A DNA stretch of 39,074 nucleotides, taken from positions 1-39,074 of the IMG/VR virus record IMGVR_UViG_3300032241_000804; one strand, written 5' to 3'. The translations under genes were made by a program, and so were the position numbers. The DNA comes from a virus. The notes below the pieces were generated by a model. That model made no database searches, was not told the DNA's origin, and saw nothing but the letters and a program-made list of their open reading frames with translations. Numbering within the stretch: position 1 is the stretch's first letter; every line of letters starts with the position of its first letter. Positions 3,969-11,195 of this stretch are shown piece after piece.

Positions 3969-4457
3969 ATGGGATGGACCTCATACACCGTAGACAACCT
4001 GGCCAAAACCGACGCGATACTTCGCCGGGAATTCACCCAGGACAGCGCCAACAACACCCGCAGCAGCTGGACCGTTGAGGACTCGGCCACCGTGGGCGCG
4101 CAATGGTATGCGCTAATGAAACACACCGACACCAACGGCCAGGCAACCTACTACGGCCTGGTTTGCCTTACTGAGCGCCGCAACGGATGGAAAAACACCG
4201 TCGAATTTTGCTTTAAGGACATGGATGAAACCTGCCACCCGTATTACTACGACTGCCCGGCCCGGATCCTGGACAAACTGGACCGCCTGGCGCCCAACCC
4301 CAGCCCCAACGCTGCAGCATGGCGCGCCAAATGCCGCGAGCGCCTGGCCACCAAGAGCGCCAAGGCCAAAGCCCGACGCCAGGAAAAACAAGCCGCCCGC
4401 GAGCGCCTGGCCCGTTTCATTAGCGACCATTTTCAAGTTATTCACACTGGAGCCTAA
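3969..4457 (+). CDS. Early protein with MGWTSY N-terminus, unknown function
   Basis: 162 residues. The opening MGWTSY and a compact beta-rich first 110 residues (WYALMKHTDTNGQATYYGLV, then NTVEFCFKDMDETCHPYYYDCP) look like a family of small phage proteins starting MGW (possibly DUF6927; recalled, not checked). Residues 115-150 are very basic and helical (KSAKAKARRQEKQAARERLA), suggesting nucleic-acid contact. It sits three bases before the gp37-like gene, so they are probably co-translated. Confidence 0.6.
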   Translation: MGWTSYTVDNLAKTDAILRREFTQDSANNTRSSWTVEDSATVGAQWYALMKHTDTNGQATYYGLVCLTERRNGWKNTVEFCFKDMDETCHPYYYDCPARILDKLDRLAPNPSPNAAAWRAKCRERLATKSAKAKARRQEKQAARERLARFISDHFQVIHTGA

Positions 4458-4460
4458 GCA

Positions 4461-5141
4461 ATGCGATACCACTTTATCCAAGCCAGCAGCAACCGAAAAA
4501 CCGGACCGATACCGACCACCTACAGCGAACGCCGGACCTGCCCGCCTAGTTGCGCGCACTACGGCCAGGACTGTTACGCCGAAGACTATTACACCCGACT
4601 CAATTGGGACAAGGTCCCGAAAAGGGGCGCGCTATTGCCCGACCTGGCCGCCAGTATTGCAGCACTAAAGCCGGGTCAATTGTGGAGGCACAACGTCGCC
4701 GGAGACCTGCCAGGAGAAGGGGAATCGGTGGACGCTGCAGCCCTGGGGGAAATCGTGAAGGCCAACCAAGGCCGCCGGGGGTTTACATACACCCACAAAC
4801 ATAGCGCCGACGCTATCTATTGGGCCAAACAGGCCACCGCCTGGGGGTTTACCGTAAACCTGAGCGCCGACGATGCCGGACACGCCGACACCCTGGCCGC
4901 GCATGGCCTGCCCGTCGTTTGCATTGTCCCGGAAGACACCCCGCAAAACACCACCACCCCGGAAGGCCGCCCGATCACGATATGCCCGGCCCAGGTTAAA
5001 AATTACATGACATGCGCGGTATGCGAGCTCTGCCAGAAGGCCGACCGAAAATCTATTATCGGATTCAGAGCGCACGGAACCAAGGCCCGCATTACCGATT
5101 TAAAAGCCCGCCGAGTAATCCCAATTCAGAAAGCCGCCTAA
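4461..5141 (+). CDS. Cysteine-rich phage protein, gp37/DUF5131-like
   Basis: 226 residues with two cysteine clusters: C27-x3-C31-x6-C38 followed by YAED (as CPPSCAHYGQDCYAE), and C175, C185, C188 and C191 near the C-terminus. The first cluster resembles the start of phage gp37-like proteins (DUF5131/DUF7227 types, recalled), which are suspected metalloproteins, sometimes compared with radical-SAM enzymes. The middle (WRHNVAGDLPGEGE, FTYTHKHSADAIYWAKQA) fits an alpha/beta barrel fragment. The reaction is unknown. The stop overlaps the next ATG (TAATG). Confidence 0.62.
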   Translation: MRYHFIQASSNRKTGPIPTTYSERRTCPPSCAHYGQDCYAEDYYTRLNWDKVPKRGALLPDLAASIAALKPGQLWRHNVAGDLPGEGESVDAAALGEIVKANQGRRGFTYTHKHSADAIYWAKQATAWGFTVNLSADDAGHADTLAAHGLPVVCIVPEDTPQNTTTPEGRPITICPAQVKNYMTCAVCELCQKADRKSIIGFRAHGTKARITDLKARRVIPIQKAA

Positions 5142-10678: not shown

Positions 10679-11022
10679 TGTGCCTACTTTCCTACAAATG
10701 TCAACTGGTTGTTCCCGTGTCATCCTACCACATAGCATCCCGATTCCAGCTACGCCGGGTGACTGGGTGTCCCCGTTTTAAGGGGAGGAACCGTTTACCC
10801 GCCGCCACGTCCCGATCTGGTCGTTCACGCTACGCTGCCCTGAGGGGGAGTATTCATCGCAGGGGAAGCGCTGGCTGTCACTTTCCTTCCCTGTGCTGTG
10901 CTGATACCTACTGCCAAGTCCAGCACCCATCGGTGGGTGGTTCCGATAGGGTAGTCTTTTCTTCCACGCCGCCGATTTCAAGCGCTTACTATCGTGTGGA
11001 GCACGGTTGTCGAGTAGGCAAC
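10679..11022. other. 344-base region without a convincing gene
   Basis: The only leftward frame (10778-10981, TTG start) lacks a ribosome site and has random-looking composition. Several hairpins are visible, such as CACCCA-TCGG-TGGGTG at 10924-10939 and CCCC/GGGG around 10779-10793. TTGACA is present on the minus strand at about 10700 without a good -10. I see no clear function beyond a leader for the 10678 gene. Confidence 0.45.
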
Positions 11023-11123
11023 AAAAAAGCCGTTTACAACTGCCCTCGGTCGAAACCCTACGGATAAACCAAGGGCGAGAGCATGTGTAAACGGCTTAAA
11101 TGATTGTTGTTTTCGACGACAAC
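11023..11123 (-). ncRNA. Candidate structured small RNA with own promoter and terminator
   Basis: From a predicted start near 11123 the minus strand has a 5' hairpin with GTTGT and ACAAC arms. It is followed by a 71-base element closed by a perfect 12-bp stem (AAGCCGTTTACA with TGTAAACGGCTT, 11086-11097 with 11027-11038) and an inner 8-bp stem (GCCCTTGG with CCGAGGGC, one wobble). The outer stem runs into six T, giving an intrinsic terminator. The 5' loop GTCGAAA is complementary to TTTCGAC in the inner loop, so a kissing contact is possible. No open frame fits. No known RNA family recognised. Confidence 0.55.
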
Positions 11124-11129
11124 GAGCGA

Positions 11130-11157
11130 ATAGTATCACACGTTGACGGCATTGCAA
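11130..11157 (-). promoter_or_regulatory. Extended -10 promoter for the candidate small RNA
   Basis: On the minus strand TTGCAA (11157-11152) is followed by 16 bases and TGATACTAT, an extended -10 with TACTAT at 11135-11130. It lies between two terminators, which makes an isolated short transcript likely. Confidence 0.5.
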
Positions 11158-11168
11158 CAACTATTTGC

Positions 11169-11195
11169 AAAAAAAACGGCCTCCGAAGAAGCCGT
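11169..11195 (-). terminator. Intrinsic terminator after the VRR-NUC gene
   Basis: On the minus strand ACGGCTTC and GAGGCCGT pair around a TTCG tetraloop, followed by eight T. It lies 39 bases past the VRR-NUC stop and separates that gene from the candidate small RNA. Confidence 0.8.

Follow-up and report, generated by a model that had tools for sequence, protein, structure and literature searches.

The locus and the parts of its leader RNA

The window, that is, the whole stretch of DNA that was analysed, covers the full 39,074 bases of an IMG/VR virus record. Among the virion proteins that it encodes, one shares less than 60% identity with its counterparts in environmental podoviruses, and a scan of the whole window returned neither a tRNA nor an Rfam hit. 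Between a nuclease-like gene and a gene of unknown function, a small RNA element lies on the minus strand (Table 1). An earlier note, made from the letters alone, had read this place as a candidate phage small RNA between two terminators. The parts that it named (an extended -10 promoter, a 5' hairpin, a 71-base nested stem closed by 12 perfect base pairs, a T-run and a strong upstream terminator) are all present at the positions listed, and the reading as a whole is supported by covariation and by a family of relatives, with the transcript itself still unshown.

Table 1. Features of the leader RNA locus and its surroundings in the window.
Feature	Positions	Strand	Support or remark
Nuclease-like gene, upstream neighbour of the element	11524-11234
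Intrinsic terminator that ends the nuclease-like gene upstream, ACGGCTTCTTCGGAGGCCGT (stem 11195-11176) and T-run	11168..11195	minus	Isolates the small RNA unit
-35-like hexamer TTGCAA, followed by a 16-nt spacer to the -10	11152..11157	minus
Extended -10, TG-A-TACTAT (TG 11138-11137, TACTAT 11135-11130)	11130..11138	minus
Predicted leader small RNA, about 102 nt	11023..11124	minus	Model score 93.1 bits and fold z -6.2
P1 hairpin, GTTGT-CGTCGAAA-ACAAC, 5 bp with 8-nt loop	11106..11123	minus	97.5% of cells paired, 40 members
Key GTCGAAA in the P1 loop, pseudoknot partner of the lock	11111..11117	minus	5/7 pairs with two-sided changes
A-rich linker joining P1 to P2, 8 nt here and 7-10 nt in most members	11098..11105	minus
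P2 5' strand, 12-bp terminator stem	11086..11097	minus	99.6% of cells paired
Internal loop, 5' side, CAU	11083..11085	minus	50/50 distinct sequences, interior-free search
P3 5' strand	11076..11082	minus	Two-sided changes in 4/6 scored pairs
P4 hairpin, differing in length and sequence among members	11056..11075	minus
Lock TTTCGAC, bulge complementary to the key	11049..11055	minus	Covariation and loop complement
P3 3' strand	11042..11048	minus	40-member alignment
Internal loop, 3' side, AGU	11039..11041	minus	AGU or AGC in 50/50
P2 3' strand, pairing with 11097-11086	11027..11038	minus	40-member alignment
Terminator T-run, T6, its first two T paired in P2	11023..11028	minus
Second block start, type A: hairpin, pseudoknot, variable hairpin	10945..11009	minus	36-sequence alignment
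Noncoding region holding the second RNA block	10745..11017	minus	3' end undefined
Gene of unknown function, downstream neighbour of the element	10738-10223

The predicted 102-nt transcript folds to -41.6 kcal/mol; its dinucleotide shuffles give -21.6 ± 3.2 (z -6.2, 0/200). All four helices form in this fold, while the P1 loop and the 7-nt bulge remain unpaired and are exact complements of each other. The element meets the definition of an intrinsic terminator, namely a GC-rich stem with a T-run on the same strand, and this is maintained across the family. Conservation extends past stem and T-run, since P1, the pseudoknot, P3 and the internal loop are also conserved or covarying. A generic scanner listed neither the leader's promoter (8/12 matches, below the threshold of 9) nor its terminator, the inner part of which exceeds the 8-nt loop limit. 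The earlier claim that there is no ORF holds only in part: mechanical ORFs do overlap the element, but the family is free of coding constraint, its core lengths being spread over all classes modulo 3 (76/58/46 among 180 members).

Covariation across a large family of phage RNAs

Relatives were collected by way of the neighbouring nuclease, which led to distant phages about 71-76% identical over the small-RNA region; there the region lies at a different distance from the nuclease gene. A pattern for IMG/VR was built from these matches; a second pattern left the interior free, and a third excluded the usual stem. Family 1, as we call these relatives, comprises at least 180 distinct RNAs in at least 243 loci, with one RNA per locus. 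These counts are lower bounds. One member found with the interior-free pattern has an A-U pair in place of the G-C pair next to the internal loop. More distant leaders (L431, L437, L443, L472 and L479) share P1 and the overall plan and have different internal loops, so CAU/AGU marks a subfamily. An RNA model built from 30 other members, with the window excluded, recovers the window with an E value of 1.5e-20.

At the sensitivities used, isolate phages and plasmids gave no match to family 1. GenBank holds one metagenomic podovirus with the RNA (MW202484.1, locus L382), and two Betaproteobacteria MAG contigs carry it. The contig of one locus, L241, is phage-like and has terminase-like ORFs; a short HTH-type gene precedes the RNA there and a replication protein follows it. 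A bacterial host origin was considered and rejected: the pattern occurs in only 2 contigs among 84,980 species genomes, and the model matches 2/300 genomes of L241's order, one being the query genome and the other a weak match (31.6 bits). An Rfam search, which the earlier note had suggested, gave no match. That is, in Rfam 15 no family other than tRNAs reached the gathering threshold in the window or the leader/block loci, and permissive searches returned chance-level matches only. No description was found in the open-access literature (subscription journals and bioRxiv were outside the scope). Family 1 is thus large, apparently undescribed, and found in uncultured phages. That a folded RNA recurs in many phages with little else in common, while Rfam lacks it and cultured phages and sequenced bacterial genomes hardly contain it, points to a widespread part of phage biology that has gone unnoticed. 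In passing, the annotation of MW202484.1 places a hypothetical protein, UOF77725.1, across the downstream block and the 3' portion of the small RNA (4000-4359); this is probably a spurious gene call.

The comparison of related phages that the earlier note had named as a check was strongly passed, and the kissing contact GTCGAAA/TTTCGAC, which it had offered as a possibility, turned out to covary across the family. In an alignment of 40 members, made with MAFFT from sequence only, 96.3% of cells are paired and 19/33 pairs show two-sided changes; the covariation score is 0.476, compared with 0.199 ± 0.009 for shuffled and at most 0.126 for slid alignments. The kissing helix is the most variable helix of all, and 96% of its cells are paired. 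Across 175 members the perfect internal complement of the P1 loop has a mean length of 7.02 nt, against 3.98 ± 0.08 when loops are swapped. The members show over 30 distinct 7-nt keys, most of them fitting GUNNNNN, and nearly all are matched by an internal complement. We conclude that the element is almost certainly a real structured RNA gene. As far as comparison of sequences alone can establish it, the gene encodes a leader RNA some 100 nt long that folds with a pseudoknot, as covariation shows. Neither the shuffles nor the automatic parser used below corrects for relatedness.

The key also turns over quickly. Between near-identical cassettes it diverges by 0.151 per site, compared with 0.105 in the flanks and 0.064 in P2, whose sequence is conserved well beyond the needs of pairing. 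Each change in the key requires a change in its partner, which hints at selection for new keys; P4 varies as fast as the key, so drift is not excluded and the turnover may be neutral. A variable yet matched key lends itself to a direct and cheap genetic test, in which the pairing is broken and restored. Two side observations belong here. In pairs of loci such as L121/L161 and L262/L283 the downstream 300 nt are 98-99% identical, and the keys are different yet still matched. To the eye, the stretch UUACACAUGC bears a short likeness to conserved 16S rRNA; this was set aside, since a variable base within it changes freely, with compensation.

The strand is settled by several features. G.U cells far outnumber A.C cells (107 versus 5), so the constrained molecule is RNA, read from this strand. 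A plus-strand reading was considered, as the palindromic stem folds there too (z -4.2) with a weaker model score (37.9 bits), and was rejected because of the promoter, the T-run and the G.U/A.C asymmetry. In 160/175 members, 6 or 7 nt separate the end of the -10 from P1, and most members have canonical TTGACA-like hexamers at the -35 place. Given this fixed distance, the start of transcription falls at the foot of P1. The position of a host-type promoter belonging to the leader is shown in this way, while its activity is inferred. Family members carry a T-run 3' of the outer stem, though the first collection pattern did not demand one.

In 135/164 cases the closest larger ORF on the upstream side runs in the leader's direction, and in 128/161 the downstream one does. 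The leader's neighbours are diverse and include genes for replication initiation, terminase, T7-like capsid assembly, RusA, a RecE-like exonuclease, HNH proteins, a methylase and a PAPS reductase. A tRNA island was rejected as the general context, with a tRNA within 800 nt in only 3/180 family-1 members. At some loci (L007/L185, L145 and L141, and L405 and L414 of the second family described below), a tRNA gene lies about 200 nt or less upstream of the leader.

A second structured RNA behind the leaders

The earlier note foresaw neither the very large family, nor the hypervariable key, nor the coupling of the leader to a second structured RNA just downstream. This second noncoding block begins 10-30 nt past the leader's T-run and extends over roughly 200-450 nt. 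In BLAST comparisons it joins 69/86 members in one similarity cluster, whereas the upstream flanks have at most 8 partners each. Several block types, A to F, occur among the relatives, and none of them matches Rfam. In the window's own type, A, the first 65 nt covary with a score of 0.360, against 0.164 ± 0.016, in 36 sequences. Simple folding of the window's single copy is not better than that of shuffles, so the case for the block rests on covariation in the alignment. In L003 (about 2230-2780) and in L296 (past the leader, from 12419 onwards), a tRNA-like T arm, GGTTCGACTCC or GGTTCGATTCC, closes the noncoding region; L296 also has a matching acceptor-like stem, CGGTGCG...CGCACCG. ARAGORN called no tRNA or tmRNA in L003.

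The block is not tied to leaders of one sequence. The window phage's two closest relatives, whose flanking proteins are 90-94% identical to its own, lack the family-1 RNA and carry a leader of a second family between the same two genes. Like family 1, this leader has a promoter, a key-lock pairing and a terminator. Family 2 consists of 38 stretches and has its own variable key (L002/L412, L003/L396, L383-L420), and 23/29 of its downstream regions match family-1 blocks at the same offset. Also in these closest relatives, L045 at 4340-4948 and the corresponding stretch of L003 hold an additional HNH endonuclease-like ORF; in the window the same gap is purely noncoding RNA.

Used as bait, block A alone brings in both leader families as well as others unrelated to them in sequence. 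An automatic parser placed a terminator stem just upstream of block A in 59/69 distinct regions; in the remaining 10/69 it found no leader, in some cases owing to an intervening insertion. Of the 59 stem-bearing regions, 52 have a key of at least 6 nt, with a mean key of 7.2 nt compared with 4.4 nt when swapped. The same block types therefore stand behind at least three sequence-unrelated leader RNAs of one architecture. Shared blocks behind unrelated leaders define a recurrent unit, made up of a promoter, a key-lock terminator leader, a short gap and a structured block, in which the leaders are, by the criterion of sequence, exchangeable in front of the block. Through this coupling, a group of unknown phage RNAs comes within reach of study; the coupling also suggests that leader and second folded RNA together form an RNA-based control device, uncharacterised so far. 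The leaders of unrelated sequence before block A were seen at L421-L424, L434, L441, L442, L451, L452, L454, L480, L482, L488 and L492, and, as a separate group, at L445, L478 and L485. One such leader family carries a 10-nt key (TGTGTCGGCA/TGCCGACACA; TGTGTGCGCA in L478).

Proposed termination and read-through, and rival explanations

We propose that the pseudoknotted leader acts as a conditional terminator for the downstream RNA module, an account that, taken whole, we regard as evenly poised between right and wrong. The key in the P1 loop would kiss the lock bulge inside the long hairpin, which doubles as an intrinsic terminator. Most transcription would end at the T-run, yielding a small RNA; in the absence of expression data, we infer that such a terminated RNA is very probably made. 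Since the gap of 10-30 nt leaves no room for a promoter, the second block is probably made by read-through, and the leader would thereby set how much short RNA is made relative to leader-plus-module RNA. Alternatively, the block could arise by processing of a transcript that starts further upstream. The kissing helix is inferred to be the switch because key and lock change fast yet stay complementary. In addition, the short RNA may act in trans, at the same site on other copies.

The points weighed for this mechanism are the covariation of the helices (the kissing helix foremost), the excess of G.U over A.C cells, the fixed promoter distance, the T-run, the shared structured block, its recurrence behind family 2 and in the search with block A as bait, and a precedent, the small RNA IsrK. 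We judge a functional link between the leader and the downstream RNA to be likely. That regulated read-through is the main function is a more tentative inference, for which doubt slightly outweighs belief, with no read-through data at hand. The perfect terminator stem speaks against it, and no conserved competing antiterminator pairing was seen by eye in the alignments (this was not computed systematically). Given the diversity of the downstream protein genes, any regulated product would have to be RNA itself. Pairing between the tail after the T-run and the P1 loop has a mean run of 5.08, against 4.77 ± 0.10, and is not used as evidence, because relatedness confounds it and family 2 lacks it.

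IsrK, from the Gifsy-1 prophage, offers the closest documented logic. Its terminator is partly read through, its short form acts on the long form, and it has been compared with the SeqA/CI RNAs of P4; read-through yields an mRNA and depends on the antQ/anrP genes (PMC4825925). Like the leader, IsrK is a phage RNA with its own promoter and intrinsic terminator, and its short and long forms share complementary segments. Unlike IsrK, read-through of the leader would give a second structured RNA, the gene neighbours vary, and key and lock sit in the same leader. IsrK shows a terminated small RNA with partial read-through to be a workable design, and the layout of leader and block is compatible with the short-plus-read-through scheme of IsrK and P4 CI, without RNA data.

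The strongest rival is that the leader is a free-standing small RNA acting in trans, whose surface of P1, P2 and internal loop binds a host or phage protein as decoy or cofactor, the second RNA merely sharing its noncoding island as an independent passenger. We find this unlikely, though it has real support: the RNA has its own promoter and terminator, often with a terminator on the upstream side as well (21/180 members, 0/180 in shuffled sequence), its gene neighbourhoods are diverse, and the sequence of P2 is conserved much above what pairing requires. It names no known protein partner, however, and leaves unexplained the constant, fixed-spacing coupling to a second structured RNA that several unrelated leaders share.

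A further development of the conditional-terminator proposal is that the hypervariable kissing helix serves as an identity key, gating its own terminator such that only matching copies are switched, with an interchangeable structured effector RNA under its control. The matching copies would be transcripts of the phage itself or of a similar, superinfecting phage, and leaders of unrelated sequence share the plan. We consider this speculative and would not expect it to hold.

The key might instead meet complementary sites in phage or host transcripts, as in an antisense or immunity-type RNA such as P4 CI or c4 RNA. A hypervariable key with an exact complement, its turnover between near-identical cassettes and a constitutive-looking promoter would all suit this idea; both pairing partners are nevertheless consumed inside the folded RNA. 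In far flanks of the same contig there is no clear enrichment (key 57 versus 47 ± 5, complement 35 versus 44). The key's complement occurs in 8 downstream regions, against 3.4 ± 1.7 when swapped, a weak excess, and in none upstream. We therefore rate the idea as improbable.

The packaging RNA of phi29 is a small phage RNA in which two complementary loops covary between phages and pair between molecules, in the service of the packaging motor. The leader shares the covarying loop-loop complementarity, its two complementary strands changing together between phages, which could mean intermolecular kissing into a dimer or ring. Unlike the phi29 RNA, the leader has an intrinsic terminator and no fixed link to packaging genes, which are not its main neighbours, and its linker of about 8 nt, nearly constant in length, fits an intramolecular contact (a geometric argument only). 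An oligomer is thus very improbable. An element acting as DNA, folded as a single strand for replication, recombination or packaging, is hardly credible: the outer stem is palindromic and DNA hairpins can covary, but G.U is tolerated where A.C is not, the promoter keeps a fixed distance, and the T-run is found on one strand only. A plain terminator whose stem happens to be unusually long, the remainder being chance, can practically be ruled out: a GC-rich stem with a T-run may be unremarkable by itself, but it does not account for a 96% paired alignment with two-sided changes in 19/33 pairs, nor for a pseudoknot present in nearly all 175 members.

Other structured phage RNAs invite comparison with the conditional-terminator layout. 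GOLLD and ROOL are noncoding RNAs of phages with kissing contacts, GOLLD often exceeding 800 nt (PMC12286853). They are comparable in spirit to the downstream block, whereas the leader has only about 100 nt, and their Rfam models match neither leader nor block. The putRNA of HK022, a structured phage RNA of about 70 nt near an early promoter, acts on transcription and suppresses termination; it has two stem-loops in a V shape and no terminator of its own (PMC9378689). In the leader, by contrast, the first hairpin and the terminator hairpin are joined by the pseudoknot.
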